The position numbers and the translations under genes are program-made. From positions 1 through 64,000 of the IMG/VR virus record IMGVR_UViG_3300009499_000295: a DNA stretch of 64,000 nucleotides; one strand, written 5' to 3'. This document shows positions 11,679 to 24,911 of the stretch, piece by piece. Every line of letters starts with the position of its first letter. The stretch's first letter is position 1. Origin of the DNA: a virus. The notes below the pieces were generated by a model. That model saw only the letters and a program-made list of their open reading frames with translations, did not search any database and had not been told where the DNA came from.

Positions 11679-12466
11679 GTTATCTACCTAAAGAGGGAAA
11701 GAGAGCAGATTCCTTCCCTGACTATAGTAAGTACTTCTACGACTTCCTAAAGATACCTGAGACAGAGATCTTTAAGCAGTCTAAACAGGAAAGGGTAAAG
11801 CAAATTCTAATCATTATAGCAGGAACTATGGGAATAGGTAAGACTACACTCATAGAGAACATCATCAATAACCTCCGGAAACACTATGGAATAGAGAAGA
11901 CGAATACAGTTTATTCCCAAGTTTCCGCTAAGGTTCTAATGGAGTATGGATTCAAAGGAAATCCCATGAGAGGATGGGATGCTGAGAAACCTATTCAGAT
12001 ATTAGTCTTTGATGATGCTACCTCTGCAAGACTAACTAAGAATGATCAAAGACAGTTCTGTAAGATGAGACATCAGATGATGGATGATACAAAACTGACT
12101 GAGGGAGTAATATTCTCAATCCTGGTTACTCATGATTGGTATCGACTAGATCCTAACTTCCGTAGAAATGCCATTGTAACAGCCTTTCTCTCAGTATCTC
12201 CTCTAGATCAATACTCAAGAAGAGAGTATGGTAGAATCTTAGGAGAAGAAGGAGTACACTTTCTTTCAGAGAGATTATCTAAGTCTCTACGGTTTGATAA
12301 GGATAAGGGAACTGGTCTGGTAGTTCTACCTTTTGTACCTCCAGGAGAAAGGTCTAAGAAAGTAGGCTGTATTAAATGGAAGAACATACAGGATGTGAAC
12401 TACATAGTTATTAAAGAACTTCCCTCGGGAAGATTAGTATGGAAGGAAAAGGTGAAACAGAAATGA
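11675..12466 (+). CDS. P-loop NTPase
   Basis: A 263-residue protein with Walker A GTMGIGKTT (50-58), Walker B ILVFDDA (109-115) and a VTHDW segment further on that may serve as sensor. The fold resembles ABC/zeta or viral packaging-type P-loop proteins, but I cannot fix the family. It is coupled to the MoxR gene (ATGA), and its stop overlaps the next gene, so it probably belongs to the same functional set. Confidence 0.7.
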   Translation: MSYLPKEGKRADSFPDYSKYFYDFLKIPETEIFKQSKQERVKQILIIIAGTMGIGKTTLIENIINNLRKHYGIEKTNTVYSQVSAKVLMEYGFKGNPMRGWDAEKPIQILVFDDATSARLTKNDQRQFCKMRHQMMDDTKLTEGVIFSILVTHDWYRLDPNFRRNAIVTAFLSVSPLDQYSRREYGRILGEEGVHFLSERLSKSLRFDKDKGTGLVVLPFVPPGERSKKVGCIKWKNIQDVNYIVIKELPSGRLVWKEKVKQK

Positions 12467-13011
12467 ATGAAAAAGTAAACATGATAGAGGATGAGGAAGA
12501 AGAAATCTTAGAAAAGACAGGCCCAGATAAGAAACATAACGAGAGAGTCTTCAACTACAAGATTGCCTCTGAAGAAACTAGAGAGATAGAGGTAAGAGGA
12601 ATTGCTTTCCTAGTTAAGTTCTACAAGACTACTACAGGAACTGCAGGGATCAGGGTTCAACTAGAAGACAATGGTCCAATATTCCAGAAGTTCTTAGAGT
12701 ACTGTAAAGAGAACAAAGGTCAACGGATAGAGAAGGAAACACAAGCTAACCTAATGGCCTTCACTACATTTGGTAAACTAGATCAGGGACTAGAGTTCTT
12801 TCCAGTAATGGGATTCTATATCTTCCCATTTGGAGATAAGACTACAGAACCACATCTAGTATTCAATGAAGAGAAGGATGCTCCTGAACCTATGGAACGC
12901 TTAGAGGCATTCATGGACTACTACAAGAAGAAACTTGGTATAAAGGTAAGACCCAAGAAGAGCTCATTCGATAGTCTTAGAAAGCTTGTCCTAACAGAAA
13001 TAGGTGACTAG
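12463..13011 (+). CDS. Uncharacterised protein of the MoxR neighbourhood
   Basis: A 182-residue protein with an acidic N-terminus (EDEEEEI) and an alpha/beta body (FLVKFYKTTTGTAGIRVQL, FFPVMGFYIFPFG). No family recognised. The ATG chosen overlaps the stop of the NTPase gene; an upstream ATG at 12439 is possible. Confidence 0.6.
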   Translation: MNEKVNMIEDEEEEILEKTGPDKKHNERVFNYKIASEETREIEVRGIAFLVKFYKTTTGTAGIRVQLEDNGPIFQKFLEYCKENKGQRIEKETQANLMAFTTFGKLDQGLEFFPVMGFYIFPFGDKTTEPHLVFNEEKDAPEPMERLEAFMDYYKKKLGIKVRPKKSSFDSLRKLVLTEIGD

Positions 13012-13012
13012 T

Positions 13013-13204
13013 ATGCCAACTCATGGAAGTATAAGTAAAGCAGGAAAGGTTCGTAATCAGACTCCCAAGATTGAGAAGACCCCTAGAAAGAAGAAGAGCC
13101 CTAAAGTAAACAACAGGAAGAAACACTACAAACGGTTCATACTAAACCAAGAAGTAGGACAGAGTGAAATAGGAAGAAGAAAACGTGGAAGACGCAGGGT
13201 ATAA
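13013..13204 (+). CDS. Ribosomal protein eS30 homologue
   Basis: A 63-residue, very basic protein that starts MPTHGSISKAGKVRNQTPKI. This matches the hallmark N-terminus of archaeal and eukaryotic small-subunit protein eS30 (HGSLxKAGKVRxQTPK), followed by a Lys/Arg stretch, RNRKKHYKRF-like spacing and a basic tail longer than usual. eS30 sits near the decoding site and mRNA entry on the 30S/40S head-body junction. The ATG at 13013 gives exactly the expected start; a GTG at 13004 is possible. The family is absent from bacteria, which supports an archaeal host. A viral copy might alter host ribosomes. Confidence 0.8.
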   Translation: MPTHGSISKAGKVRNQTPKIEKTPRKKKSPKVNNRKKHYKRFILNQEVGQSEIGRRKRGRRRV

Positions 13205-13442
13205 TTCAGGTCTTTGCCCTAACCTTAAAGAATGTGGAGAATGGAGAGGAGAATGGTATTGGGGATTCTGTCATCAAGACTTTGCCTGGTCACGATGCCC
13301 TCTGTTTATAAAGACAATCAACCCAAGTTCTAGATATCTAGGTATGGAAACCTTCCTTAAGTATACTCAGTTAGAAGTAATGAGAAAGGCGTTGAAAGAG
13401 AATGTCAAAACCTATACAGGGAAACGTAGAAGTAATCACTAA
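13185..13442 (+). CDS. Small Cys-rich protein with INPSSRYLG
   Basis: An 85-residue protein with Cys near residues 11, 17, 29 and 38 (a possible zinc site) followed by INPSSRYLG near residues 45-53, one of the extended forms of the window motif. GTG start inside the end of the eS30 gene; overlaps the metallopeptidase gene by 41 bases. Confidence 0.55.
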   Translation: MEDAGYNSGLCPNLKECGEWRGEWYWGFCHQDFAWSRCPLFIKTINPSSRYLGMETFLKYTQLEVMRKALKENVKTYTGKRRSNH

Positions 13443-14274
13443 GAAGAACTGGAAGAGGATTAAGCAGGAAGTAGAGGACTCTGTTCTCCGAGCCTGGAGA
13501 AATAGTAAACTTATTGTCCCTAGAATGGCCCTAGACTTCCGAGTACACTTCCAAGAAGTATATGCATCATCAACTGGTAGAATCTGGGCTTTTACCCCTT
13601 TCTGGAGAGGAAGAGTCTTTACCGATGTTATCATGATGCATGAGTTTCTCCATTGGGCTATATATCCTATAGATCTATGGAAGGGACTCTCTGACATGTT
13701 CAAGGCACGAAGAATGTTAGCAGAGGATCTTAAGTGGAAACCTACAAACAAGGAAACTGACCTCTATGGAGAGGTAGAGGACTGGTCAGGTTTTGAATAT
13801 GACATTACAGAATTCAGCTTTGTCCAGAATATCTTAGGAGACTATCTAATCAATCTTCATATACATGATAACCATCCTATTCTCTTTGCTGATCTATGGA
13901 AGTTCCTTTACCATGATGGAACCTTCTATGAGCAACAGAAACAACTAAAGAGAGACTCTACCTTTATTCTCTACCTATCAGCATACCCTGATCTTCTAAG
14001 TGACATAAAGGAAGAAGTTACCCTGATAGATCCAAAGTCAGAGAAGGACAAGGATAAGATCATAGACATTATAGTAGAAGTACGACATGGTAGAATGAGT
14101 AAGGTCTACGCCATTAAGGAACTGACTAAGATCTTTCATCCGTACATAGTACAGGATCAGAAGGATTCTAAGGGTAACAAGGGAGCAGAACCAAAGTGTC
14201 CTAAGTGTGGTCACGATGAGTTTGAGGTAGTAGGGTACGAGGATCCAAAGACAGGGAAGTGGGTAGATGTCTAA
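13402..14274 (+). CDS. Metallopeptidase of a MoxR-vWA system (DUF2201-like) with zinc ribbon
   Basis: A 290-residue protein. HEFLHW at residues 80-85 is an HEXXH zinc-peptidase motif. The C-terminus ends in a zinc ribbon opening with CPKCGH; only one CxxC is clear. Metallopeptidase-like domains of this sort (DUF2201) normally precede a vWA domain, either fused or in the next gene, next to a MoxR ATPase. Here the ATPase is upstream and the vWA gene is 1.2 kb downstream. The substrate is unknown. Confidence 0.65.
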   Translation: MSKPIQGNVEVITKKNWKRIKQEVEDSVLRAWRNSKLIVPRMALDFRVHFQEVYASSTGRIWAFTPFWRGRVFTDVIMMHEFLHWAIYPIDLWKGLSDMFKARRMLAEDLKWKPTNKETDLYGEVEDWSGFEYDITEFSFVQNILGDYLINLHIHDNHPILFADLWKFLYHDGTFYEQQKQLKRDSTFILYLSAYPDLLSDIKEEVTLIDPKSEKDKDKIIDIIVEVRHGRMSKVYAIKELTKIFHPYIVQDQKDSKGNKGAEPKCPKCGHDEFEVVGYEDPKTGKWVDV

Positions 14275-14437
14275 AGGATACTTTAACCCTTCAATGAGAC
14301 ATGATCTACATTTCCATGATAATTGGGGAGATCATGAGTGTCCAGCTAATAAATGTGAGTACATTGTCTTTGATGACTTTGGATACAGAATCGTCTATTG
14401 TAAGAACTGTGGTCAAGCAGATAGAAGGAAGCTATAG
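14267..14437 (+). CDS. Tiny zinc protein with N-terminal FNPSMR
   Basis: A 56-residue protein with FNPSMR at residues 6-11, immediately after the start, and Cys at about 25, 30, 45 and 48 forming a zinc ribbon. It begins inside the metallopeptidase gene (eight-base overlap). Shows that the motif is not confined to C-termini. Confidence 0.65.
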   Translation: MSKGYFNPSMRHDLHFHDNWGDHECPANKCEYIVFDDFGYRIVYCKNCGQADRRKL

Positions 14438-14448
14438 AGGATGAACAG

Positions 14449-14610
14449 ATGCCTAAGAGAATAGCATGCCCTAATTGCAAAGGACATCTTAAGAGAGGGA
14501 GCCTAGCTCTAGATGAGAGAGCCTGGGAATGTGAGAATTGTCATACGATCTTTACAGATAAATACCCAGTAGAAGAAAAGAAGGGAAAGTTTAACCCCAG
14601 TAAAAGATAA
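14449..14610 (+). CDS. Tiny zinc ribbon ending FNPSKR
   Basis: A 53-residue protein: CPNC near residues 7-10, CENC near 28-31, a charged linker and the C-terminal end FNPSKR. A short zinc ribbon plus the tag is the commonest architecture in this part of the window. Confidence 0.7.
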   Translation: MPKRIACPNCKGHLKRGSLALDERAWECENCHTIFTDKYPVEEKKGKFNPSKR

Positions 14611-14641
14611 GTGTAATAGAACAGTATGAGTGACTCTCAGA

Positions 14642-14830
14642 ATGAGTAAATTAGCACCTATAATATGTCCAAGATGTCTTAGTAAGGAACTAAGGATAGC
14701 AAAGGCTACGTTTGTCACTAAACCTTATCTGATTCACTACTGTCTATGTGGATGGGTAGAAACTAGAAAATACCGTAAAGGATTAGTACCTATGATCCTT
14801 AAAGATTCATTTAACCCGAGTATGAGATAG
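14642..14830 (+). CDS. Tiny zinc ribbon ending FNPSMR
   Basis: A 62-residue protein with CPRC near residues 9-12, CLCGW near 35-39 and the C-terminal end FNPSMR. The start is uncertain (GTG at 14630 also possible). Zinc ribbon plus C-terminal tag. Confidence 0.65.
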   Translation: MSKLAPIICPRCLSKELRIAKATFVTKPYLIHYCLCGWVETRKYRKGLVPMILKDSFNPSMR

Positions 14831-14831
14831 A

Positions 14832-15032
14832 ATGTATAAACCTCCTCAGATATTTCAACCTAAACCTGCCCCTGTTTATCAATTCTTGGAGCTAAAGTGT
14901 CCTCATTGTGGGTATGAGATCTACCGACCCTACCGTGAATTAACAGACTTACCATCAGAAATACTATGTATAAAGTGTGGAAAGCACTACTCTGTATCCA
15001 GTCAATGGAATCCTTCGAGGAGATACTTATGA
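14832..15032 (+). CDS. Tiny zinc ribbon ending WNPSRRYL
   Basis: A 66-residue protein with a Pro-rich N-terminus, CPHCG near residue 23 and CIKCG near 46, ending WNPSRRYL. The codons for Ser-Arg-Arg give GAGGAG, which lies seven bases before the next gene's ATG and is its ribosome-binding site. Confidence 0.7.
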   Translation: MYKPPQIFQPKPAPVYQFLELKCPHCGYEIYRPYRELTDLPSEILCIKCGKHYSVSSQWNPSRRYL

Positions 15033-15217
15033 GTAAACATGTTCATTGTCCAAAATGTAATGCCCAAGGTTACTTAAAGGCACATAAAAAAGAATGGAGT
15101 ATATTCATTTGCCGAAGATGCAGATGTCTCTTCTCAGTGTCACAGAGCGATTTAGAACAGATACATGAGACATCTGACACAGAAGTGGTACTCCCCTTTA
15201 ATCCTAGTTCGAGGTAG
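15029..15217 (+). CDS. Tiny zinc ribbon ending FNPSSR
   Basis: A 62-residue protein: CPKC near residues 8-11, CRRCRC near 27-32 and the C-terminal end PFNPSSR. The start at 15029 overlaps the previous stop (ATGA) and has GAGGAG upstream, so longer readings are rejected. Confidence 0.7.
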   Translation: MSKHVHCPKCNAQGYLKAHKKEWSIFICRRCRCLFSVSQSDLEQIHETSDTEVVLPFNPSSR

Positions 15218-15222
15218 TAATA

Positions 15223-15474
15223 ATGAGAAGACCCCGGTTTGAGGAAGTCTGTATCCATCCTTTCTATCTTAAGAAGAAGAAACTATGTATCCACCCAGAT
15301 GACAGAATCTTCTTCTTTGAACATCCGGCCTTCTTCGATAAATCTTTCTTTAGTTCTGATAAAGTATTCAAACCCTTTCAGTTAGGAATGATTTATGGAT
15401 ATGAGGTCTTTGTTCAGGATGATATGCAGATTATGCTCCTAAGTATGAATGGAGGAAAGAGTGTTGAAGATTAA
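15223..15474 (+). CDS. Small hypothetical protein
   Basis: An 83-residue, Phe-rich protein (FFFEHPAFF, KSFFSS) with a basic N-terminus. No recognised domain. The codons near its end provide the GGAGGA used by the vWA gene. Confidence 0.55.
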   Translation: MRRPRFEEVCIHPFYLKKKKLCIHPDDRIFFFEHPAFFDKSFFSSDKVFKPFQLGMIYGYEVFVQDDMQIMLLSMNGGKSVED

Positions 15475-16462
15475 GATAAAATGTACTAAATGTAATTGGG
15501 AAGCAGTAGTAGAGGTATCACGCTCCCCCTTAGGTTCTCTAAAACCAGGTAAAGCTATCAAGGGTACAGGGAAAGGACTGAAAGTTAAGTGGACAAAGGA
15601 ACAACTGGATAAGGTTATGGATGCTGCTGGAGGACTAGGTGCCTCTAGAGATGAGCTAGGTCAGGTAGGTATCCGTGTCCCCATTCCTCAGTGGGTAGAC
15701 GCCCTGGAACGTAGAAGACTTAGACAGTTTGTAAGGAAGCATCTAAAGGTCTCTAAAGATTTAAGAAACGCTCAGGGAGAAAGAAGTCAAGTATCTACTG
15801 CTCCTTGGCAAATGGGAGATTCTTTCAAAGATGTAGATCTAGCCTCTAGTGAAATTGCAGCCTATGGAGTTCCCGATCTTCGTCTTATTCCTGGAGTAAC
15901 CCTACAGAAGAGGGTCTTTGAGACTACTAAGGGAGGAGACCGAGAGATACTTAGGGGAATAAAGTTCTTTAACATCATAGATGTCTCAGGAAGTATGTTC
16001 GGCGGATCAAGTCAAAGTCAAGGAAATATCGATAAGGTTCACAAAGCACTTATGATGGCCGAAGAGACATCAAAGATCTGTAAGAAGTTAGGTTATGACT
16101 ACAACTTGTCTATCTTCTCTGGTATAGCTACTAGGATTCCCAAGAGAAAGATCAAAAGATTCTTTAAATCTGAGACTGAAAGAGCAACCTATCCTGGATG
16201 GAATGGAGGAACTACACTATCATCTGCTCTCGGACTATACGATCTAAAGGAACTCAAGGATGGAAACTTGGTCATAATGTCTGACATGGATATATCTGAC
16301 TCTGAGGAATCTAAGAAGAAGTTGAAAGAGATAGGAAATGTAACCTCATCCTTCAAGGTAGTAATTATAGAGTATCGTTCTCAACTAAGGAAAGAAAGAT
16401 TAATAAGAACAAGGGAACTATTTCCAGATAAGAAAGTACAAATACTCCGAATAGCAATCTAA
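15461..16462 (+). CDS. vWA domain protein, partner of MoxR ATPase
   Basis: About 333 residues. After a short zinc-like CTKC segment and a helical region comes a von Willebrand A domain with a complete MIDAS: DVSGSM (Asp near 174), a downstream Thr in GGTTLSSAL and MSDMD. Such vWA proteins are adaptors that bind MoxR ATPases and clients. With the MoxR gene at 10092 and the HEXXH protein at 13402 this makes a three-part system. GGAGGA precedes the GTG/TTG pair; ATG at 15449 is an alternative start without a good site. Confidence 0.75.
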   Translation: MLKIKIKCTKCNWEAVVEVSRSPLGSLKPGKAIKGTGKGLKVKWTKEQLDKVMDAAGGLGASRDELGQVGIRVPIPQWVDALERRRLRQFVRKHLKVSKDLRNAQGERSQVSTAPWQMGDSFKDVDLASSEIAAYGVPDLRLIPGVTLQKRVFETTKGGDREILRGIKFFNIIDVSGSMFGGSSQSQGNIDKVHKALMMAEETSKICKKLGYDYNLSIFSGIATRIPKRKIKRFFKSETERATYPGWNGGTTLSSALGLYDLKELKDGNLVIMSDMDISDSEESKKKLKEIGNVTSSFKVVIIEYRSQLRKERLIRTRELFPDKKVQILRIAI

Positions 16463-16478
16463 ACAGGAGGATCTATTA

Positions 16479-16694
16479 TTGCCGAATAAAAAAGAAACAA
16501 AAGATTTCGAGATGAAGTCAGAATACTGGGAAGTAACAATAGACAAGGCAGACCATTCTGAGATTAAGTACATCATCGTCTTCAAGGATAAGGTGATCCC
16601 AGTGGGAGAACTAAGAAAGCTTGAAGAGGCTATAAGGAAGGTTCTCGAAGCATGTGGCCGTATAGAGACTTTGCATCCTTCAAAACGCCAATAA
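16479..16694 (+). CDS. Small protein ending HPSKRQ
   Basis: A 71-residue alpha/beta protein. TTG start with AGGAGG upstream. The end LHPSKRQ looks like a drifted version of the NPSKR tag (His for Asn). The gene overlaps the next by 43 bases. Function unknown. Confidence 0.55.
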   Translation: MPNKKETKDFEMKSEYWEVTIDKADHSEIKYIIVFKDKVIPVGELRKLEEAIRKVLEACGRIETLHPSKRQ

Positions 16695-16873
16695 ATCTTG
16701 ACAAATGCAAGGTCTGTGGTACCTATGTCTGTCTTGTACCAGTGACCTATGGCAATGCATTGTTTGGATACGTCTGTGGCCTCTGTGCAGGGATCCTATT
16801 CACGAAAGGGAACCTTAGAATAGGTTTCAACCCAAGCTCTAGAAACCCCTGGAGGATAGTGAAAGTAAAATGA
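16652..16873 (+). CDS. Small zinc protein with FNPSSR near the end
   Basis: A 73-residue protein with CKVC near residues 19-22, CGLC near 42-45 and GFNPSSR near residues 58-64, followed by nine more residues. Zinc ribbon plus motif; the motif is close to but not at the C-terminus. Confidence 0.65.
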   Translation: MWPYRDFASFKTPINLDKCKVCGTYVCLVPVTYGNALFGYVCGLCAGILFTKGNLRIGFNPSSRNPWRIVKVK

Positions 16874-17097
16874 CAAAAGTAATACTTGAAGAAGATTCCT
16901 GGATTAGATGGATAGACAAAAAAGGCAATGGTACAATAAGAGTAGGTCAAGTTAAGAGACGAATAAAGGATAAGCCCTTTGATAGTCAGAATATAACAGT
17001 GGCTACTCCTAACTATGGAGAAACACAGTTAGATGTTAGTACAATCATAGAGGTCTTCCCTAAAATAACAATAAGATTTAATCCTTCGGAGCGATAG
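16870..17097 (+). CDS. Small beta-rich protein ending FNPSER
   Basis: A 75-residue protein without Cys, with several predicted strands (WIRWIDKKGNGTIRVGQVKRR, a possible SH3/OB-like barrel) and the C-terminal end RFNPSER. Shows that the tag is not linked only to zinc ribbons. Starts within the previous stop (ATGA). Confidence 0.65.
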   Translation: MTKVILEEDSWIRWIDKKGNGTIRVGQVKRRIKDKPFDSQNITVATPNYGETQLDVSTIIEVFPKITIRFNPSER

Positions 17098-17099
17098 AG

Positions 17100-17390
17100 A
17101 TGAAACTACAAGGAATGTTCAAATGCCCTCAATGCGGAGGAGAGTTTGATGCATGCAGACCCAGTGGTCCTGGTAGAATCTGGGCTCATTGTGTAAGTTG
17201 TTCTCTAGTAGTTATTATAGAAGACTACAAACTCTGGCTAAGACGAGCACAGAGAAGAAAACAACAAAAAACGGGAGTTCATGGTAGTAAATCGTATTCA
17301 GGAACGTTAGTCTACCCAGGTTTTGATACAGGGAAAACAAAGGAAATAGAGAAAAAGGAAAAGGATGAATACAATCCAACGGAGAGATAA
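17100..17390 (+). CDS. Small zinc ribbon ending YNPTER
   Basis: A 96-residue protein: CPQCGGEFDAC near residues 9-19, CVSC near 31-34, then a basic linker and the end EYNPTER. Thr replaces Ser in the tag. Zinc ribbon, function unknown. Confidence 0.65.
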   Translation: MKLQGMFKCPQCGGEFDACRPSGPGRIWAHCVSCSLVVIIEDYKLWLRRAQRRKQQKTGVHGSKSYSGTLVYPGFDTGKTKEIEKKEKDEYNPTER

Positions 17391-17394
17391 TTAG

Positions 17395-17667
17395 ATGCCT
17401 TATATAAAAGAAGAGGATCGTGTACCGATTAGTAGATATCTAAATGATCTGATAGCAATACTCAGAATCAAGACAGATAAGGGAAAACAAAGCAATGGTC
17501 AGGTAGTTTATGCTATCTATAGGATTATCAAGGAAGTCTATGGAGAAGGACGTTTTGAAGTAAAGAGTAATGCTTTGAAAGTCTTGGATGCTGCAGGTAA
17601 GGAATACTACAGACGAATCATGGTTCCGTACGAAAAAGAGAAGATCAAGGAAAATGGAGACGTCTAG
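17395..17667 (+). CDS. DUF6899-like phage protein
   Basis: A 90-residue helical protein opening MPYIKEEDR and containing NGQVVYAIYRII, similar to a small protein family common in tailed phages (DUF6899). No catalytic residues are evident and the family has no assigned function. It lacks the tag carried by its neighbours. Confidence 0.6.
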   Translation: MPYIKEEDRVPISRYLNDLIAILRIKTDKGKQSNGQVVYAIYRIIKEVYGEGRFEVKSNALKVLDAAGKEYYRRIMVPYEKEKIKENGDV

Positions 17668-17929
17668 TTTGGGTCTCAATTACTTTAAGTGTAAAATCTG
17701 TGGATTCTCTTTTCTAGAACTGTACAATCTTGAACACCATATGCTAACTTATCATAGGAAAGAACATACCCTAAAGAGGAAACAAGGTAACTTTGGTTGT
17801 TATTGGAGATGTTCCGAGTGTGGAATGGCATTCAAGAATGTGAAAACAGCTCTCAATCATTCAGGAGAAATGAATCATAATCCGACAGAGAGAATCGAAC
17901 TGGATGGCTTTAATCCTTCGAGGAGATAA
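17654..17929 (+). CDS. Double C2H2 zinc finger with two copies of the tag
   Basis: A 91-residue protein with two C2H2 fingers: CKICG...HH..TYH near residues 13-34 and CSECG...H....NH near 53-74. Two motifs follow, NPTER near 75-79 and the C-terminal FNPSRR. The internal copy ends at a position that looks like a former C-terminus, suggesting extension of the protein and addition of a second tag. Likely nucleic-acid binding. Confidence 0.7.
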   Translation: METSSLGLNYFKCKICGFSFLELYNLEHHMLTYHRKEHTLKRKQGNFGCYWRCSECGMAFKNVKTALNHSGEMNHNPTERIELDGFNPSRR

Positions 17930-17930
17930 T

Positions 17931-18041
17931 ATGTGGGAATGTCCTTTCTGTGGTTCTGAGGCAGAGAGAGTCTTTCCTAGAGACTATACTTCGCGTTTAA
18001 TCTATTGTCCAGTTTGTAAGGTTCATACTTCTCCAAACTAA
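17931..18041 (+). CDS. Tiny zinc ribbon, 36 residues
   Basis: CPFC near residues 4-7 and CPVC near 26-29 fill almost the whole protein. It is preceded by the SD formed from the tag codons of the previous gene (GAGGAG), and it is followed after two bases by the mini-gene that encodes only the tag. It has no tag of its own. Confidence 0.6.
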   Translation: MWECPFCGSEAERVFPRDYTSRLIYCPVCKVHTSPN

Positions 18042-18043
18042 AG

Positions 18044-18088
18044 ATGGCAGAGAAAGAATTCAATCCAACAAAAAGAGGGGAAAATTAA
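18044..18088 (+). CDS. 14-residue mini-gene encoding essentially only the FNPTKR motif
   Basis: ATG, 13 further codons and TAA: the peptide is MAEKEFNPTKRGEN. It sits directly after a tagless zinc-ribbon gene (two-base gap), and its stop directly abuts the next ATG. It could be a true peptide carrying the motif alone, or the 3' end of the upstream zinc-ribbon gene split off by a frameshift: the upstream stop and this ATG are two bases apart, as expected for a broken C-terminal tag. No dedicated SD beyond the upstream coding bases. Confidence 0.5.
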   Translation: MAEKEFNPTKRGEN

Positions 18089-18433
18089 ATGAGTGATGAA
18101 GGAAAGAAAAAGATCAAGATAGACAGGTATAATCCAAGCTCTAGGAAGAACGAAATAATAGAGATAGAGCAGGTACAAATAGGAACAGTAAAGTACAAAG
18201 ACATTGGAGATAACTTTGAATGCCTTGTAGGGATAGAGACAGAAGATTCGGATGCTGGTTTGTACAGAGGAAAGAGTGTAACTATGAACTCACCCAGGAG
18301 AATATCTAGGATTAGGTGGGATGTATCTAAACACCACAGCCTAGGAGATAGAGTAGATCTTAGTCCCAGAGATATTCAAGTCCTAGATGCAATCCTTCAA
18401 TACCTAAAGAAAATGGGTTACCATGTGGGATAA
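18089..18433 (+). CDS. Small protein with N-terminal YNPSSR
   Basis: A 114-residue protein with a basic N-terminus, RYNPSSR near residues 13-19, then a beta-rich body and a C-terminal helix (DIQVLDAILQYLKKMG). GAGGGGAAAA precedes the start. No family recognised. Confidence 0.6.
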   Translation: MSDEGKKKIKIDRYNPSSRKNEIIEIEQVQIGTVKYKDIGDNFECLVGIETEDSDAGLYRGKSVTMNSPRRISRIRWDVSKHHSLGDRVDLSPRDIQVLDAILQYLKKMGYHVG

Positions 18434-18438
18434 GAAAG

Positions 18439-18642
18439 ATGGGCAAAGTGAAAGACATACTAAAGAAACTTAGAGGAAAACAAGGGACTATTTCAGATCT
18501 AGAGATTCCACCGGATCATGTTAGATGTTCAAGGTGTAAAAAGACAGTTCCTAAGGGAAAGGCTACTGTTGACCTAGAGGCCTCGACAAGACGTACAGAG
18601 GTATGGGTCTGTGATGGATGTTTCTTTGGACATGCAATCTAA
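18439..18642 (+). CDS. Small zinc protein
   Basis: A 67-residue protein: basic N-terminal helix, CSRC near residues 30-33, CDGC near 58-61. Zinc ribbon without a tag. The end overlaps the next gene by 29 bases. Confidence 0.6.
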   Translation: MGKVKDILKKLRGKQGTISDLEIPPDHVRCSRCKKTVPKGKATVDLEASTRRTEVWVCDGCFFGHAI

Positions 18643-18874
18643 GGAATACCCCTCTAATCTTCGGGGAAGACTCTCGGAACAGACCAGATGTGAAGTCTGT
18701 AAAGACTTTCTCAATGATTCTTGGTGTCTAACAAGCGTATGTCAGATTTGTTGTGAGAAGGGACGTTGTAGGAGAAAAGAACATTGTTGTGTCTATCCAG
18801 ATATCCTAGTTCGTCTACAGTATCAGAAAAAAGAAAGTGTGATCTATAATCCATCTAAGAGGATAAAGATTTGA
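18614..18874 (+). CDS. Cys-rich protein ending YNPSKRIKI
   Basis: An 86-residue protein with about ten Cys (CEVC, CQICCEKGRCRRKEHCC) that could hold two zinc ions, ending YNPSKRIKI. GTG at 18611 and ATG at 18632 are alternative starts. Function unknown. Confidence 0.6.
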   Translation: MDVSLDMQSKEYPSNLRGRLSEQTRCEVCKDFLNDSWCLTSVCQICCEKGRCRRKEHCCVYPDILVRLQYQKKESVIYNPSKRIKI

Positions 18875-19155
18875 CCCTTAAAAAGAGAGAATGTTATTAC
18901 TGTAAGACAGATGTTACTGAGGGTGAACGTCTGAGGATCAGTTTAATGGCAGGAAAGGCTAAGTATGTTGGTACTAGCTTACAAAGTAGTGGACAGCTTG
19001 AAAAGATTTATGTCTGTTCTGACTGTTCTAGAGATTACTTTGAACTCATAGTTATGGGACACAGTAATACGCACAATCACTTAAAGTTAATACTCCAAAG
19101 AATGATTCCTACTAAGAGAATAAAGAAAAGAGAATGGAACCCTACGGAGAGATAA
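18871..19155 (+). CDS. Small zinc protein ending WNPTER
   Basis: A 94-residue protein with CYYC near residues 8-11 and CSDC near 49-52, a His/Asn-rich segment, a partial motif-like IPTKR near 78-82 and the C-terminal WNPTER. The tag codons (ACGGAGAGA) are the SD of the RNase H-like gene. TTG start overlapping the upstream gene. Confidence 0.65.
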   Translation: MTLKKRECYYCKTDVTEGERLRISLMAGKAKYVGTSLQSSGQLEKIYVCSDCSRDYFELIVMGHSNTHNHLKLILQRMIPTKRIKKREWNPTER

Positions 19156-19157
19156 TC

Positions 19158-19568
19158 ATGAAAGCCTATGTTGATGGATCCTCTACTGGTCTCTACGGAT
19201 ATGAGATAACTACTCCAAGAAAGGAGAGGAGTCTTGTCAGAGACCATCCAATGACAAATAACCAAGCAGAATGGTTAGCTCTAGTTCATCTACTTATGAA
19301 CCTAGAGCCCAGAACAAAGTTAACTATCTTCTCTGATTCTCAGATAGTTGTTAATCAGTTAATAGGGGCATGGGAGACTAGGGACAAGGAGATGCGACAC
19401 CTTAAGGGAGTTGCTAGGGAACTAATAGAGATAAAGGAACTAAACGTTAAGATGATCTGGATTCCAAGGAAACAGAATGTCTTTGGTTGGTATCTAGATA
19501 AGATCATGAAACATCGTAGGAAGAAGAGAAGGAAGCGTAGAGAGAGGATAAGGAGAGGATATAATTGA
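19158..19568 (+). CDS. RNase H-like protein
   Basis: A 136-residue protein with the RNase HI-type core: Asp6 in YVDGSS, Glu38 in NQAEWLAL, Asp60 in FSDSQ and a late Asp114 where the fourth carboxylate is expected. The ending is extremely basic. RNase H removes RNA primers or RNA:DNA hybrids; the basic tail could bind nucleic acid. ATG at 19158 has GGAGAG just upstream; an earlier ATG lacks a site. Confidence 0.7.
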   Translation: MKAYVDGSSTGLYGYEITTPRKERSLVRDHPMTNNQAEWLALVHLLMNLEPRTKLTIFSDSQIVVNQLIGAWETRDKEMRHLKGVARELIEIKELNVKMIWIPRKQNVFGWYLDKIMKHRRKKRRKRRERIRRGYN

Positions 19569-20776
19569 AAGAACTAAAAGAACTTCTAAAATCAGATAAT
19601 CTAGTAATTATGGCTTGTCAGGAGTACCCAGGCTTTCCTGATGAAGTACACTTCTGGGGAGGAATGGGTGTAGTTGCTCAGTCTATCTCTGAGAGACTAG
19701 TCAAGAGAGGCTATGAGGTCCTAGTCATTCCTCGAAGAGTAAAGGAGTATGGAGCCGAAGGTGTCTTCTATGACCAGAAGAATGAAGTTAATGTTCTAAG
19801 TTTACCTACTCAAGCATTCCAAGCAGGAAGTGAGAATGGTGATCTCTATCAGATCTATCCTACTCGTGCAGGAAGGTCTATCCTAGATCACACCTTCACA
19901 ACATGGAGGTACTTAGAGAAAATAGGGATGAAGGATCCTATCTTCCACTGCCATGATTGGTTAGAAGTAGGTACACTCAGGATGTCCAAGAAGAGTGGCT
20001 TCCGAAACATCTTAACAGTTCATATGTCTGCCATTAGAACAGAAGATAGGGTGGAAGCAGATAAACGTCTAGAACTAGAACGACTGGCAGGAGGTTATGC
20101 TGATAAGATCCATTATGTCTCCTTAGCTCAGATGAACTCTTGTAGGTTGTATCACTGGAATCATGATAAGAGACACTATGTCATAAAGAATGGTGTAGAC
20201 ATCAATAAGTTTACCCCACCTAAGGAACAACCTATAGGAGACTATGTCTTCTTTGTAGGGAGACTTACTCCTGTGAAGAATGTTACTGCCCTAGTAAATG
20301 GATGGAGACTCTTCAATAATAAATACCCAGGAGTAGAACTAAAGATCCTAGGAGCATCAGGTATCTCTAACATAGACGTTATGCAGGCTATTGAGAAGTT
20401 AGAACCTAATCGGAGAAACAAGGTAGAACTTAGGATTGAGATGGTCTCAGAGGAAGAAAGACTAAGGTACTACCGGAACTCTACTGTGTGTTGCTTCCCA
20501 AGTTCCCAAGAAGCATTTGGTATTGTAGCTGTAGAAGCACAATCCTGTGGAAAGCCTGTAGTAGTTGGAGATGTAGGTGGCTTTAAGGAGAATGTCCTAG
20601 AGGGAGTTACTGGTGTTCATGTCCAGGGTCACATTCCTGAGGAAATAGCTAGAGGTTTAGAACTAGCCTTCCTTAACAGAAAAGCATGGGGAAAGAACGC
20701 TAGGAAATTGGTCAAAGGTTTCTTTTCATGGGATAACCTGATAGATAACTATGTAGAGGAGTTGTATGAAGAATGA
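19565..20776 (+). CDS. GT-B glycosyltransferase (GT4/GT5-like)
   Basis: A 403-residue protein with an N-terminal GGMGVVAQSISERL acceptor-site loop, HCHDW near the domain boundary, then a GT4-type C-terminal domain: FVGRLTPVKN, FPSSQEAFGIVAVEAQSCGKPVV. This resembles glycogen/starch synthase and GT4 enzymes, which use nucleotide sugars with retention of configuration. It sits alone among zinc-ribbon genes, far from the large glycan cluster. TTG start with GGAGAGG upstream. Confidence 0.75.
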   Translation: MKELKELLKSDNLVIMACQEYPGFPDEVHFWGGMGVVAQSISERLVKRGYEVLVIPRRVKEYGAEGVFYDQKNEVNVLSLPTQAFQAGSENGDLYQIYPTRAGRSILDHTFTTWRYLEKIGMKDPIFHCHDWLEVGTLRMSKKSGFRNILTVHMSAIRTEDRVEADKRLELERLAGGYADKIHYVSLAQMNSCRLYHWNHDKRHYVIKNGVDINKFTPPKEQPIGDYVFFVGRLTPVKNVTALVNGWRLFNNKYPGVELKILGASGISNIDVMQAIEKLEPNRRNKVELRIEMVSEEERLRYYRNSTVCCFPSSQEAFGIVAVEAQSCGKPVVVGDVGGFKENVLEGVTGVHVQGHIPEEIARGLELAFLNRKAWGKNARKLVKGFFSWDNLIDNYVEELYEE

Positions 20777-20991
20777 GATTCAAAAGGAAAAAGACCAAGA
20801 CTTATATCAAGATAGAGTTTGATAAAAAGACTCAGGAGATTAGGATAGAAGTAGAACCAGAGACTGTAAGACCTACTGAGATAATCCAGACTCTTATGCT
20901 AGCAATAAACGTTATAAGCCAGACTCTACAAAAGGAGTTAAAGGCGAAGAAAGAAAAGAAGAAACCAAAGAAGTTGGGATATATTGGATGA
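20773..20991 (+). CDS. Small basic protein
   Basis: A 72-residue protein with two beta strands, a helix and a Lys-rich tail (KAKKEKKKPKK). Overlaps both neighbours by four bases. Function unknown. Confidence 0.55.
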   Translation: MRFKRKKTKTYIKIEFDKKTQEIRIEVEPETVRPTEIIQTLMLAINVISQTLQKELKAKKEKKKPKKLGYIG

Positions 20992-21296
20992 CTGGACATC
21001 ACGGACATTCAGTTAATGAGACTAAGGCAAGATCCTTACTTAAGGCAATATCAGGAAGGGTAATTGAGATTGCTGTAGGAACCCTAGTCTTTGGAACAAT
21101 AATCTCTATATTCTTTCCAAGTATTCCTAGTCCCTTTATAGCAGGGCTTGGTTTTAATCTATTAGAGGAAACAGTCTGTTTTATAGTAACCTATGGTACT
21201 GAAAGAGTATGGAATAAAGTATCCTGGGGAAGGAAGGTGTTAGATAAAATTGTCATACATGGATCCAGAGAAGAAGAAGATAGCACAGAAAGCTAA
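20988..21296 (+). CDS. DUF2061-like membrane protein
   Basis: A 102-residue protein with two hydrophobic segments and the pattern of DUF2061 proteins: KAISGRVIEIAVGTLVFGT, then ETVCFIVTYGTERVWNKVSWGR. The N-terminus is His-rich and the tail acidic. Integral membrane protein of unknown function. Confidence 0.6.
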   Translation: MTGHHGHSVNETKARSLLKAISGRVIEIAVGTLVFGTIISIFFPSIPSPFIAGLGFNLLEETVCFIVTYGTERVWNKVSWGRKVLDKIVIHGSREEEDSTES

Positions 21297-21423
21297 GTGG
21301 AGACACTACTATATCTGTAGAATATGCAAGAAGAAGTACAGAGGACGGAAACGATGTTCTAGATGTGGGTCTAGTAATAGAAGGGAAATACATCATGATG
21401 CCAGAAAGAAAGGAAGAAACTGA
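21259..21423 (+). CDS. Tiny basic zinc ribbon
   Basis: A 54-residue Lys/Arg-rich protein with CRIC near residues 20-23 and CSRC near 33-36, followed by HHDARKKGRN. Overlaps both neighbours in other frames. Likely nucleic-acid-binding zinc ribbon. Confidence 0.55.
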   Translation: MDPEKKKIAQKAKWRHYYICRICKKKYRGRKRCSRCGSSNRREIHHDARKKGRN

Positions 21424-21568
21424 TACGGGGATAGTTAATCTCCTCTGTGAGGAATGCGGAAGGATTACCCCTCATATCTTAGAGGAGAGAGGTAGAACTA
21501 AGAAGGTTGCAATCTGTGTCCTCTGTGAAGAAGAAGTTGGAATCTTAGGAACAGAGACAGAAGAATGA
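21395..21568 (+). CDS. Small zinc ribbon
   Basis: A 57-residue acidic protein with CEEC near residues 19-22 and CVLC near 42-45. No tag. ATG at 21398 or GTG at 21365 are alternative starts. Coupled to the next gene (ATGA). Confidence 0.6.
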   Translation: MMPERKEETDTGIVNLLCEECGRITPHILEERGRTKKVAICVLCEEEVGILGTETEE

Positions 21569-21753
21569 AAGATCAATATGGTAGACTACTTCAGTGTCCT
21601 CAGTGTCGTGGATATATGATTATAGGAGTCCATGTACCTTTTGCTTCTAGCAGACATCGATGCACAGATTGTGGTTATAAGGGTAGGGAAGAGTCCTTTA
21701 GGGCTGTTCCAGCTAAGGCTGTAATTGAATACTTTAATCCATCGGAGAGATAG
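21565..21753 (+). CDS. Tiny zinc ribbon ending FNPSER
   Basis: A 62-residue protein: CPQC near residues 11-14, CTDCG near 33-37 and the end EYFNPSER. The tag codons contain GGAGAG, the SD for the next start three bases past the stop. Confidence 0.7.
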   Translation: MKDQYGRLLQCPQCRGYMIIGVHVPFASSRHRCTDCGYKGREESFRAVPAKAVIEYFNPSER

Positions 21754-21755
21754 TA

Positions 21756-22043
21756 ATGAAAAATAGAACCCTTTCATCTAAGAAGAAGACACTTGACTTT
21801 GATAAGATAGAGATAATCATCAGAAGTCTAACCCTAGACGAGTTGACTATAGTCCTTGGAAAGATAAAGAACGGTCCTCTTCATGGAGCAAAGCAGGCAC
21901 TTGAATATGGAATAGTATCTCCTCCCAGTATCAAGAATAATCCTGGAAGATTAAACGCTGAGATTGCACTTGTTGTTGCAACAGAGATTCTAACACTATC
22001 AGGACTATATGAGAAACCCCCCTATAACCCCTCCGAGAGATAA
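21756..22043 (+). CDS. Small helical protein ending YNPSER
   Basis: A 95-residue protein without Cys; helical, with a segment resembling ribosomal protein L7/L12-type sequence (LTLDELTIVLGKIKNGPLHGAKQALEYG; weak resemblance only). It ends PPYNPSER. SD from the upstream tag. Confidence 0.6.
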   Translation: MKNRTLSSKKKTLDFDKIEIIIRSLTLDELTIVLGKIKNGPLHGAKQALEYGIVSPPSIKNNPGRLNAEIALVVATEILTLSGLYEKPPYNPSER

Positions 22044-22045
22044 GT

Positions 22046-22282
22046 ATGGGCTTCATTTCATCATCAACAGTAGAGTTTAAAAAGGCAAAGTACCCAAAGC
22101 TCACGATGGAAACTATCTGTGCTAACTGTGGAACAATGGGTTGGAAGACTATGATGAGGAAAACGGGTAGACTATGGGTCTGTAATAGCTGTTGGAAACT
22201 ATTCAAAGAAGAGATAATGAACCAAAAGACCGACAATGTAACAGTTAGGAAAAGAAGGTTTAATCCATCGGAGAGGTACTGA
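22046..22282 (+). CDS. Small zinc ribbon ending FNPSERY
   Basis: A 78-residue protein with CANC near residues 25-28, CNSC near 46-49 and the end RRFNPSERY, one residue after the tag. The stop overlaps the next ATG. Confidence 0.7.
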   Translation: MGFISSSTVEFKKAKYPKLTMETICANCGTMGWKTMMRKTGRLWVCNSCWKLFKEEIMNQKTDNVTVRKRRFNPSERY

Positions 22283-22446
22283 TGGAAACCACATGTTCCT
22301 TTTGTGGAAGGAAATCTAAGATTACTACGATAATCAGTAGTTTCTTTATTTGTGAGAGATGTCATCTAGAGTATGAAAAGACAAAAGCTGGAATGACTAC
22401 AATGGAAAAGTATAAAGATAAACGATTTAACCCATCGGAGAGATAA
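22282..22446 (+). CDS. Tiny zinc ribbon ending FNPSER
   Basis: A 54-residue protein: CSFC near residues 5-8, CERC near 24-27, end RFNPSER. Same layout as its neighbours, consistent with serial duplication, although the bodies differ strongly. Confidence 0.7.
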   Translation: METTCSFCGRKSKITTIISSFFICERCHLEYEKTKAGMTTMEKYKDKRFNPSER

Positions 22447-22448
22447 AA

Positions 22449-22661
22449 ATGGAATGTCCAACCTGTAATAAGGAGAGTCAACCTCTCTGTCCATTCTATG
22501 ATGGATGTAAATATAGACATTCACAGCTCCAAGCAGAGAGGGTTTGCTGGAAGACACCACACTACTGTGACATCTATAGAAAGAAGAACAGAAGAGCACC
22601 CCCGACAGAACGAGAGGAGGAGTTTAATCCTTCAGAGAGGGATAATGATGTTGATATGTAG
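22449..22661 (+). CDS. Cys-rich protein with FNPSER near the end
   Basis: A 70-residue protein with CPTC near residues 3-6 and further Cys at 14, 20, 33 and 40, then APPTER and FNPSER in tandem (about residues 50-55 and 59-64) before an acidic end. The last 14 bases overlap the next gene. Confidence 0.65.
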   Translation: MECPTCNKESQPLCPFYDGCKYRHSQLQAERVCWKTPHYCDIYRKKNRRAPPTEREEEFNPSERDNDVDM

Positions 22662-22854
22662 TGAGTGTCTTATGGACTATAAGCTCTCCAAACCAATGTT
22701 CCTTACCTCAAGGAGTAAAAGTCTTTGTGAAGATTGTAATCGGATCAGAACTTGTTTTAATATTCCTGCAAGTGTATACTCTTACAAGGATCTAAGGGAC
22801 GTTAAGATACTAGAGAGAAAGAGAAAGAAATCATTCAACCCTTCGGAGAGGTAA
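22648..22854 (+). CDS. Small zinc ribbon ending FNPSER
   Basis: A 68-residue protein with CSEC near residues 4-7, CEDC near 29-32 and the end SFNPSER. AGAGAGGG from the tag codons of the preceding gene lies at SD distance from the ATG at 22648 (22645 also possible). Confidence 0.65.
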   Translation: MLICSECLMDYKLSKPMFLTSRSKSLCEDCNRIRTCFNIPASVYSYKDLRDVKILERKRKKSFNPSER

Positions 22855-22857
22855 GAA

Positions 22858-23091
22858 TTGGGTGGACGAGTTAGTTGGGAAGATGCGTATACACCTTGTA
22901 AGAAAGCGATAGTACCTTTATATGGGGAGAAGAAGAAAGTAAAGTATAGTTATTGTAATGACTGTCAGTTTTCTTTTGAGAGGAAGAGTCGGAGGAAAGA
23001 TTGTCCCAAGTGTGGATCCTATAACATTTCTTTTATGGGAGGGAGTTTTGTCCCAGTAAAGGGGATGTATTGGAATCCTTCAGAGAGATGA
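22858..23091 (+). CDS. Small zinc ribbon ending WNPSER
   Basis: A 77-residue protein with CNDC near residues 33-36, CPKCG near 48-52 (rubredoxin-like spacing) and the end YWNPSER. TTG start preceded by GGAGAGG from the upstream tag. Confidence 0.65.
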   Translation: MGGRVSWEDAYTPCKKAIVPLYGEKKKVKYSYCNDCQFSFERKSRRKDCPKCGSYNISFMGGSFVPVKGMYWNPSER

Positions 23092-23414: not shown

Positions 23415-24911
23415 ATGGAAAACATATGGAAAGTAGATATGAATCGTCTAATAAAACTAGTAGCAGAGAGAATGTATAGTGATCCAATTAAAGCAGGAAT
23501 AAGAGAACTAATCACAAATAGTCTAGACGCTCGGGTAGGACAGGTAACGATCCGGATAGACTATGATGATATTCAGAAGACATTACATTATTCAGACTCA
23601 GGAATAGGAATAGATCCTAAGACCTTTAAGGATATCTATGGCAAGATAGCATCAGGCCATAAGAGACGTAAGAACTCCAGAGGCTTCTTTGGTATAGGGA
23701 GAATGTCCCTAATTGCTGCATCTAAGAAAGGAATGATAGTATCCTACAAGGATAATAGAGTCTATACCTGGTTCTTTAACAAGAAGGGATGGAATGGACC
23801 TGAGGTACAGGATGATGAGGATAAGATAGGCCATGGAGTCTACATCTATTTCAATGGTATAGAGATAGAGGATCTAGGAGAGATGGAGCTATGGATCCAG
23901 AAGACTTTTTCTGTTCCCCTAGCGAGAAAGGAATGTACCATCCAGTTCCAGATGGGGAGTATTTCTAGTCTAATTGATGATCAGTGGACTGTGTACCCTG
24001 AGATTAAGACTAAGAATGGTCCAATTCTGTTCTATGCTAAGGAACAGACAGATGGAACTCTTCATGTATGTCAGAAGGGAATCTTAGTAAAGGAAGAGAG
24101 TTATACCGGTCTAACTGTGTTCGCAGACCAGAGCTTCTTAGAGATTAAGACAGATAGGGAAGGTTTTATTAATAATGCTAAGTATCGTCAGTTCAACTCT
24201 ATTGTGAAGAAGGAACTGGCTAAGATAAGACCACAGAAGAGCTTCAAGAAGATGGAAGTGCATTTCATTCGTAGACTTATGAAGGAGTTTAAGAAGTATT
24301 GGCTTGTCCAGGCAAAGAAGACTGATCCTGTTCTGGAGAAAGTAATACTAGAGTTTCCTAAGACAGGGAAAGAGTTAGTTACAGATAAACCAGAGACTAA
24401 GGAGACTATTCCACTTATTGATCAGCCAGGGTTTGAAGAGGTCAAGAAAGAACTAGAACTATGGGACAATGTACCAAGTGAAGGACTAGATGGACCTTTC
24501 CCACCACCAGAAGGACAAGAACACAAGGAAGGAACAAAGAGCACCGAGGTTATCAAGGCTGAAGATGTAGAAGGGGATAGAGCAGGTTACAGTACAGCTG
24601 CAGAAGCAGAAGACAATAAAATAATCAAGGAGAAGACGGTAGTAATAAAAGGAGCTAAACCCGTTGATCTTGGAGAGGATTATCCAATGGTCTTCTTTGA
24701 GACTGATCCATTCATACTTGTCTTCAATACCTCACATCCAGTCTTTAAACAACTGGTAGAGAAGGGGAAACTTAGCTCTGCTCAGTTAGCTGTTCTATTT
24801 GAGAGGATGTTTGAGTGTGCATACACTGATCGTTTCCCAGTAGAATCACCCGAAGAGTTGAAGAAAAGATGGAAGGAAGTCGATCTGAAACTCAAGGAAA
24901 TATTCAAGTAG
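23415..24911 (+). CDS. GHKL (Bergerat-fold) ATPase
   Basis: A 498-residue protein with the Bergerat ATP site: N box ELITNSLDA (Glu31, Asn35), G1 box DSGIGID (61-67) and G2 box GFFGIG (90-95). A second alpha/beta domain follows (transducer-like, TDREGFIN), then an acidic, Pro-rich disordered linker (about 360-420) and a small C-terminal domain. The order recalls Hsp90/MutL/topo VIB-type ATPases, though no partner endonuclease or topo VIA gene is adjacent. ATP-driven dimer clamp is the likely mechanism; the role is unknown. Confidence 0.75.
   Translation: MENIWKVDMNRLIKLVAERMYSDPIKAGIRELITNSLDARVGQVTIRIDYDDIQKTLHYSDSGIGIDPKTFKDIYGKIASGHKRRKNSRGFFGIGRMSLIAASKKGMIVSYKDNRVYTWFFNKKGWNGPEVQDDEDKIGHGVYIYFNGIEIEDLGEMELWIQKTFSVPLARKECTIQFQMGSISSLIDDQWTVYPEIKTKNGPILFYAKEQTDGTLHVCQKGILVKEESYTGLTVFADQSFLEIKTDREGFINNAKYRQFNSIVKKELAKIRPQKSFKKMEVHFIRRLMKEFKKYWLVQAKKTDPVLEKVILEFPKTGKELVTDKPETKETIPLIDQPGFEEVKKELELWDNVPSEGLDGPFPPPEGQEHKEGTKSTEVIKAEDVEGDRAGYSTAAEAEDNKIIKEKTVVIKGAKPVDLGEDYPMVFFETDPFILVFNTSHPVFKQLVEKGKLSSAQLAVLFERMFECAYTDRFPVESPEELKKRWKEVDLKLKEIFK

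Follow-up and report, generated by a model that had tools for sequence, protein, structure and literature searches.

An NPSxR peptide on dozens of unrelated small proteins of a probable archaeal virus points to an address-label system

Several described systems mark many unrelated proteins with short peptides. The peroxisomal signals PTS1 and PTS2 serve import into a eukaryotic organelle, and PTS1 requires a free C-terminus, where ssrA acts as well. Encapsulins share the HK97 fold and load their cargo via short terminal peptides, among which we know of no NPSxR consensus. In large prokaryotic viruses, most small early genes have no known function. Here we analyse a window of 64,000 nucleotides, positions 1 to 64,000 of IMGVR_UViG_3300009499_000295, from a large tailed virus (virus A), probably of uncultured archaea, with Bathyarchaeia as the probable host group. 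Many of its small proteins carry the tag N-P-[ST]-x-R, Table 1.

The closest parallels share some traits with these tags and differ in others. PTS1 and PTS2 too are a pair of short, mutually unrelated tags, one typical of C-termini and the other of N-termini, and they too mark many unrelated proteins; in virus A each tag goes with a gene block, and there are only candidate readers. Encapsulin cargo peptides are likewise short additions to unrelated proteins and are read by one protein (shells, PMC8346489), although a shell usually has one or few cargoes. Plasmodium PEXEL, a five-residue motif on many unrelated effector-like proteins, was also recognised by its recurrence, but it lies near the N-terminus and is a secretion signal processed by a protease. 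Sorting tails of the archaeosortase and sortase type are recurrent C-terminal motifs of unrelated archaeal or bacterial proteins in which a membrane helix and a basic tail follow the motif, whereas in virus A 14 of the 40 NPSxR copies end the chain at the arginine. AAA+ degrons and adaptor motifs such as ssrA are short peptides at flexible chain ends that recruit an unfoldase; ssrA needs the free C-terminus, while 13/40 NPSxR copies are N-terminal or internal. Among viruses, the part of PMC10848311 considered here describes Fuxiviridae and Kunpengviridae as head-tailed viruses assigned to Bathyarchaeia. Kunpengvirus has a PolB, as virus A does; Fuxivirus is 32 kb long vs 120-156 kb for the group studied here, and no such tags are described in that part of the source.

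Table 1. NPSxR carriers and members of the candidate reader cassette in virus A (coordinates in the window).
Feature	Coordinates	Strand	Basis
carrier of 82 residues, FNPSAR at residue 30	1..249	+	
carrier, MNPSQR near N-terminus	8726..8941	+	
MoxR-type AAA+ ATPase, candidate reader cassette	10092..11678	+	
conserved protein of cassette	12439..13011	+	
carrier, INPSSR internal	13185..13442	+	
metallopeptidase-like protein (HExxHW), cassette	13402..14274	+	assigned by eye
carrier, FNPSMR N-terminal (residue 6)	14267..14437	+	
zinc-ribbon-like carrier, C-terminal FNPSKR; G001 orthologue NPSER	14449..14610	+	
carrier, C-terminal FNPSMR	14642..14830	+	
carrier, WNPSRR, two residues before C-terminus	14832..15032	+	
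carrier, C-terminal FNPSSR	15029..15217	+	
vWA-like protein (DxSGSM), cassette	15461..16462	+	assigned by eye
degraded tag HPSKR; orthologues G004 NPSKR, G006 NPSRR	16479..16694	+	
carrier, FNPSSR, nine residues before C-terminus	16652..16873	+	
carrier, C-terminal FNPSER; G001 orthologue NPSKR	16870..17097	+	
carrier, C-terminal YNPTER	17100..17390	+	
carrier, two copies near C-terminus: HNPTER, FNPSRR	17588..17929	+	
14-aa ORF MAEKEFNPTKRGEN, almost only tag; or out-of-frame tail of upstream gene	18044..18088	+	
carrier, N-terminal YNPSSR	18089..18433	+	
carrier, YNPSKR, three residues before C-terminus	18614..18874	+	
carrier, C-terminal WNPTER	18871..19155	+	
zinc-ribbon-like carrier, FNPSER; G001 orthologue NPSRR	21565..21753	+	
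carrier, C-terminal YNPSER	21756..22043	+	
carrier, FNPSER, one residue before C-terminus	22046..22282	+	
carrier, C-terminal FNPSER	22282..22446	+	
Cys-rich carrier, FNPSER; G001 orthologue NPSRR	22449..22661	+	
carrier, C-terminal FNPSER	22645..22854	+	
carrier, C-terminal WNPSER	22858..23091	+	
carrier, FNPSER at residue 16	24869..25084	+	
carrier, FNPSSR at residue 12	25415..25693	+	
zinc-finger-like carrier, FNPSMR; orthologues G001 NPSFR, G004 NPSKR	27310..27639	+	
Cys-rich carrier, GNPSSR; orthologues G001 NPSRR, G006 NPSFR, G003 NPSKK	28710..29090	+	
carrier, FNPSCR, five residues before C-terminus	32755..32916	+	
zinc-ribbon-like carrier, FNPTAR; G001 orthologue NPSKR	34308..34571	+	
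carrier, NNPSSR near C-terminus	34668..34967	+	
carrier, DNPSSR at residue 36	39299..39643	+	
carrier, FNPSSR near C-terminus	39980..40246	+	
carrier, FNPSSR at residue 9	40218..40505	+	
carrier, FNPTKR; likely G001 orthologue NPSKR, detected only with motif unmasked	49641..49826	+	
zinc-finger-like carrier, FNPTKR; G001 orthologue NPSKR	49823..50206	+	
carrier, C-terminal WNPTER	50163..50450	+	
carrier, LNPTNR; G006 orthologue NPSFR	51791..52090	+	
carrier, DNPSSR	52480..52596	+	

In a six-frame translation of the window, [FYW]NP[ST]xR is found 31 times on the plus strand and never on the minus strand; with any first residue the numbers are 42 and 2. The other 69 kb of the record contain a single additional [FYW] match, at 66065. 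In the left half of the virus A genome (1-66.6 kb), 36 of the 138 proteins are carriers vs 0.19 expected (mean of 300 within-protein shuffles, maximum 3), and the relative G001 (virus B) has 69 carriers vs 0.26 expected. The carriers are mutually unrelated: the 38 in virus A belong to 38 families, and the 69 in G001 to 68. The sequence-only reading, which had proposed about 40 unrelated small carriers, is thereby borne out far above chance. It had also written the motif with an aromatic first residue; the NP[ST]xR core stands, but the aromatic residue is a mere preference of virus A (28/40 copies), weaker in G001.

The near neighbours NP[^ST]xR, N[^P]SxR and NPSxK are at background level in the virus A genome, so most of the drifted forms listed in that reading do not constitute a class; at 16479, HPSKR is truly a degraded tag, given the NPSKR and NPSRR of the orthologues. 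The DNA 15-mers encoding the tag are distinct in 40/40 copies and serine is coded by both TCN and AGY, therefore the tag is not a DNA repeat. Arginine is mostly AGR, with few CGN codons. Unrelated carriers, differing DNA copies and one-residue variants at background together show that selection acts on the peptide, as had been argued from codon diversity.

The expected position near the C-terminus also holds, with 27/40 copies at most 15 residues from it, six near the N-terminus and seven internal. In most of the exactly C-terminal copies the frequent glutamate at x, coded by GAG, overlaps the Shine-Dalgarno sequence of the next gene, and GAG-AGR often serves as that sequence, with the start 3-6 nt past the stop. 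One could thus regard the peptide as a by-product of an element at the DNA or RNA level, for instance a ribosome-binding site within the coding sequence or a repeat dispersed over the genome. We consider this hardly conceivable, given the codon diversity, the existence of N-terminal and internal copies, and the only six exactly C-terminal copies among the 69 carriers of G001. The overlap accounts for residue x, not for N-P-S-R; as the main cause, a repeat or ribosome-binding-site artefact is ruled out by the synonymous codon diversity and stays only for the glutamate.

Conservation in relatives, proposed earlier as a check, is clear. In the tagged orthologue pairs of A and G001 the tag is kept in 8/8, while the flanks (10 residues on each side) are identical at 7/100 positions (7%) and residue x is identical in 1/8. 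For untagged A proteins, the G001 orthologue is also untagged in 14/15. The tags are gained and lost as clean add-ons, as in MSENPSRRLNK of G001 vs MSKNK of G006. The form of the tag differs between viruses (FNPSxR, NPS[KR]R, NPS[LF]R).

NPSxR is one of two tags, each bound to its own gene block. The block at 99-133 kb of virus A lacks NPSxR and has a second tag, [LFV]-W-x-[KRE]-[LI]-[FL], which is mostly N-terminal, located in a predicted N-terminal helix, and also variable between viruses (WxxLF vs WxKIL). The N-terminal W tag is found in 20 proteins of A vs 1.9 expected, in 33 of G006 vs 3.6 and in 10 of G004 vs 2.2. A fold search with a W-tag model gave no significant match. Two orthologous pairs, A 114270 (W) with G001 4746 (NP) and G006 146921 (W) with G001 29324 (NP), seem to have exchanged one tag for the other, at modest similarity (E about 2e-6).

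The NPSxR peptide is selected, conserved, modular and confined to one block. We read it, with a rough probability of 0.55, as a short linear motif, appended as a docking address and read by one partner in a block-specific two-address system. On small accessory proteins the tag would occupy a tail, probably a flexible one, and bring them to a common partner that reads the asparagine, the proline, the Ser/Thr hydroxyl and the arginine strictly and ignores the surroundings; the mostly N-terminal [LFV]Wxx[LI][FL] helix would be the address of the neighbouring block. In one AF2 model, which is poor overall (mean 51), the tag lies in a tail with pLDDT<50, and the position of most copies near chain ends also speaks for flexibility. 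A shared signal with one partner had been proposed before, and it is well supported by the strict four-residue specificity, the conservation against diverged flanks and the unrelated carriers; the selection presumably stems from a single reader. Alternatively, NP[ST]xR might be a modification site, for example for Ser/Thr phosphorylation by a host or viral kinase, which would suit the interchange of Ser and Thr beside fixed N, P and R. This is improbable: there is no kinase among the viral proteins searched, a strict N-P ahead of the hydroxyl better suits docking or turn geometry, and the second, unrelated tag of the other block would be left unexplained.

A docking address may recruit its carriers to a machine of the host or to a compartment or AAA+ complex of the virus. 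The leading virus-encoded reader candidate is the MoxR-metallopeptidase-vWA cassette (10092-16462), with a host protein as the main alternative. The protein at 10092 matches AAA_lid_2 above the cut-off and bpMoxR below it, and the one at 15461 has no Pfam match at E<=0.001, its DxSGSM being read in the alignment. Searched against the PDB, the profiles of 42939, vWA and MoxR gave only a weak MoxR-like match. The cassette is present in A, G004, G005 and G006, with its gene order kept in the three relatives, and is absent from the tagless, LonB-bearing G268-G270, a co-occurrence of tag and cassette that is confounded by kinship. G005 has the cassette and almost no NPSxR, and the record of G001, with the most tags, lacks both the cassette and the adjoining block. 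A second MoxR-DUF2201 pair is located in the W block. In 12 Bathyarchaeia genomes C-terminal NPSxR is not clearly in excess (168 vs 136 control matches), so that nothing suggests host ligands that a host reader would bind.

The AAA+ machines bring in a reading of the tags as degrons or remodelling signals, in which NPSxR and the W tag would each deliver the proteins of their block to an AAA+ machine of the virus or the host, so that accessory proteins are removed once their phase of infection is over, with enzymes and virion proteins left untagged. Virus A has genes for LonB and ClpP as well as two MoxR-type cassettes that include metallopeptidase and vWA domains, and the tags are block-specific and near chain ends, as is usual for AAA+ engagement. 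We nevertheless find it rather unlikely, since the tag also occurs inside proteins and so does not depend on a free end, and two of the proteases fit poorly. ClpP, one of the readers suggested initially, is disfavoured because G001 lacks it at the syntenic place, where the neighbouring genes are present. LonB is also disfavoured, being conserved in tagless G268-G270; its gene is next to that for the portal, as would be that of a head-maturation protease, and this position suggests a role in head maturation. The AAA+ and MoxR ATPases had been named as well: MoxR is still a candidate, but the Cdc48-like AAA+ at 35243 is missing from all the tagged relatives that were examined and occurs in the untagged ones.

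A virion component as the reader, also put forward originally, finds no support in the structural block, which like the large enzymes has no conserved NPSxR copy. The same holds for packaging, by which the tags would load the carriers as cargo into the virion capsid or another shell. Virus A does encode an HK97-type major capsid protein, the fold of the encapsulins, but some 60 different cargoes with two tags would be extraordinary, and G004 and G006 have orthologous capsid genes but few NPSxR tags; we give packaging little credence.

Taken further, the docking reading becomes a tentative picture, held at less than even odds, of an archaeal virus with two exchangeable tags, one per block, in which dozens of unrelated accessory proteins are tagged by clean addition and delivered to a dedicated reader, which would be a compartment of the virus or a MoxR-type machine that it encodes. 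The virus would then have a sorting or timed-turnover code, to our knowledge the first tag-and-reader system of such extent in any prokaryotic virus. More than 100 small genes in related records are grouped by a four-residue code according to a seemingly shared partner, so that identifying one reader would place all of them in a pathway. The concerted change of the tag between viruses makes reader co-evolution testable. A literature search found no report of NPSxR or W-tag motifs, the motif-string queries being drowned by unrelated words.

The phosphoesterase at 33108 has an internal tag match and the terminase at 96521 (outside the window) another; neither is conserved, and both look incidental.

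For the 120-156 kb virus group, two of three queries gave no match in GenBank phage records, and the third, LonB, matched only one short unannotated contig. A RadA-like profile found no relatives in 257 Bathyarchaeia genomes (no positive control was run), and a direct DNA scan of viral contigs for FNPSER-stop gave no match. Two candidates were dropped as relatives: L007, also drawn in by the first RNR scan, is a bacteriophage with PolA and RecA, and G007 (RNR 54%) is a different virus without tags. The relatives compared beyond G001 included G003, G004, G005, G006 and G268-G270. Both gene blocks and both tags of virus A recur in a relative of 156 kb.

The NPSxR motif (N-P-[ST]-x-R) is real. 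In the first 66.6 kb of virus A (IMGVR_UViG_3300009499_000295, record G000; genes called with our own heuristic) 36 proteins carry it, against 0.19 expected when residues are shuffled within each protein, and the window, which covers bases 1-64000 of the 133,079-base record, contains 31 matches to [FYW]NP[ST]xR on the plus strand and none on the minus strand. One-position variants of NP[ST]xR are at background in A, and therefore none of N, P, S/T and R is dispensable. The sequence-only reading had described a recurring motif on unrelated carriers and with serine codons of both families, and these points hold. With the motif masked, no two of 38 carriers in A are detectably related, and the DNA copies are all different (40/40), with serine codons from both families. 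A Pfam search of the carriers gave no family in common; the weak matches are mostly to different zinc-binding folds.

Conservation in relatives had been proposed as a check. We searched with the reductase, which gave virus B (G001, 121.5 kb; reductase 74% identical), and with the RadA-like protein, which gave the records G003-G006. The excess over the shuffled null is found in B as well, where 69 of the 160 proteins in the first 72 kb carry NPSxR (0.26 expected). NPSxR is present in 9/88 proteins of the G006 replication block, in 4/64 of G004 and in three of G003. Eight tagged A proteins have a B orthologue (reciprocal best, motif masked, at most 250 residues; identity 32-51%). N-P-[ST]-x-R is kept in all eight pairs and residue x in one, while the ten motif-aligned flanking residues on each side are 7% identical. 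Among untagged A proteins with a B orthologue, 14 out of 15 are untagged in B also (Fisher p = 1.8e-5), and the single exception is a tag swap. A clean insertion of the tag is seen in MSENPSRRLNK of B versus MSKNK in G006.

NPSxR is absent from the 99-133 kb block of A, where an unbiased tally of short patterns returned LWxxLF and WxxLFG. This W tag, [LFV]Wxx[LI][FL], is found on about 20-30 small proteins in this block and in 42-105 kb of G006, mostly at N-termini, e.g. MKLSKANKLWRKLFG and MSRKTNKVWSELF. N-terminal carriers number 20 in A (1.9 expected), 33 in G006 (3.6) and 10 in G004 (2.2). The consensus is WxxLF in A and Wx[KR]IL in G004 and G006, and orthologues shift accordingly. The NPSxR and W blocks are adjacent and in identical order in A, G004 and G006, provided, for A, that the two ends of the record are joined. 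In two orthologous pairs the tags differ: WNKIF at the end of A 114270 corresponds to NPSCR in B 4746, and LWEKILG at the start of G006 146921 to NPSRR at the end of B 29324. AlphaFold models give weak support: in one (mean pLDDT 63) the W tag is part of an N-terminal helix that precedes a beta-rich domain, and in another, poor overall (mean pLDDT 51), the NPSxR tag lies in a tail of low confidence.

When x is Glu in A, the codon is GAG without exception. In most of the 13 listed exactly C-terminal copies GAG-AGR lies a few bases upstream of the next gene's start, and therefore doubles as a Shine-Dalgarno sequence; this double use of the x and Arg codons, seen within 14449-23091, explains the FNPSER appearance of the window's densest cluster. 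The overlap does not account for the core motif, which persists with other x residues, at N-termini and in B. A 14-codon ORF at 18044-18088, MAEKEFNPTKRGEN, is hardly more than the tag, and either stands alone as a tag peptide or belongs to the upstream gene as its out-of-frame tail.

Virus A encodes PolB, a RadA-like ATPase, an ERCC4-type nuclease, the ribonucleotide reductase large chain, archease, an archaeal-type CCA-adding enzyme, an HK97-type major head protein, portal and terminase. By these genes it is an archaeal tailed virus. The structural genes (67-98.5 kb) are on the minus strand and the remaining genes on the plus strand. For the LonB-like protease, a scan of the genome collection with two short patterns matched 18 loci, all from Bathyarchaeota (53-65% identical, mostly 61-65%), so the host, judged from this one gene, is probably a member of Bathyarchaeia. 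The LonB reading frame of the relative G268 is broken into two pieces (18961-21435).

Features of virus A (L003-L005, sub-loci of G000)
Feature	Position	Strand	Remark
Candidate reader cassette: MoxR ATPase, conserved protein, HExxHW protein, vWA protein	10092-16462		
Second MoxR-like ATPase (assigned by eye) and DUF2201 metallopeptidase-vWA protein	L004:10161-12597 = G000 110161-112597		W block
LonB-like membrane protease, virus-encoded	L003:10275-12524 = G000 92275-94524	-	adjoins portal gene, the position expected of a head-maturation protease
ClpP in an archaeal virus	window 30412-31002		kept in G003-G006
RNA-repair set: Ro60/TROVE-vWA protein, two RNA ligases, archease	window 2491-3636, 4326-5354; L005:7779-10044		CCA-adding enzyme in L004 adds to the set

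The pattern is what one would expect of an appended docking peptide that a stringent reader recognises. From gene content, it is plausible that the two tag blocks are early and middle genes. Reader candidates were sought by co-occurrence across virus records. The ClpP-like protease, proposed earlier as a candidate partner, is disfavoured because it is missing from G001 at the syntenic position, although its flanking genes are there. LonB is likewise disfavoured, being found in the relatives G268-G270, where tags are absent. The MoxR ATPase, also proposed earlier, remains a candidate: A, G004, G005 and G006 all retain the cassette and the tagless G268-G270 lack it, but G005 has almost no NPSxR. 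The G001 record is without the cassette region. This distribution, and the MoxR-like/DUF2201 pair in the W block, make MoxR-type machines the best viral candidates, in a comparison confounded by kinship. In 12 Bathyarchaeia genomes, the probable host group, C-terminal NPSxR is not clearly in excess (168 versus 136 control matches).

Tagging of many proteins with a short peptide has precedents elsewhere; a pair of tags, each specific to its own gene block, is to our knowledge new for a virus of prokaryotes. Neither motif was found reported in the open literature searched, and the section consulted on published Bathyarchaeia viruses does not describe them (PMC10848311). Among 50,697 GenBank phage records there was no match to the tagged protein 28710 or the RadA-like protein, and LonB matched one short unannotated contig. 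Another virus without these tags, G007 (L121-L127), has a set of seven proteins with CWEWQ and CCNPxH in common.
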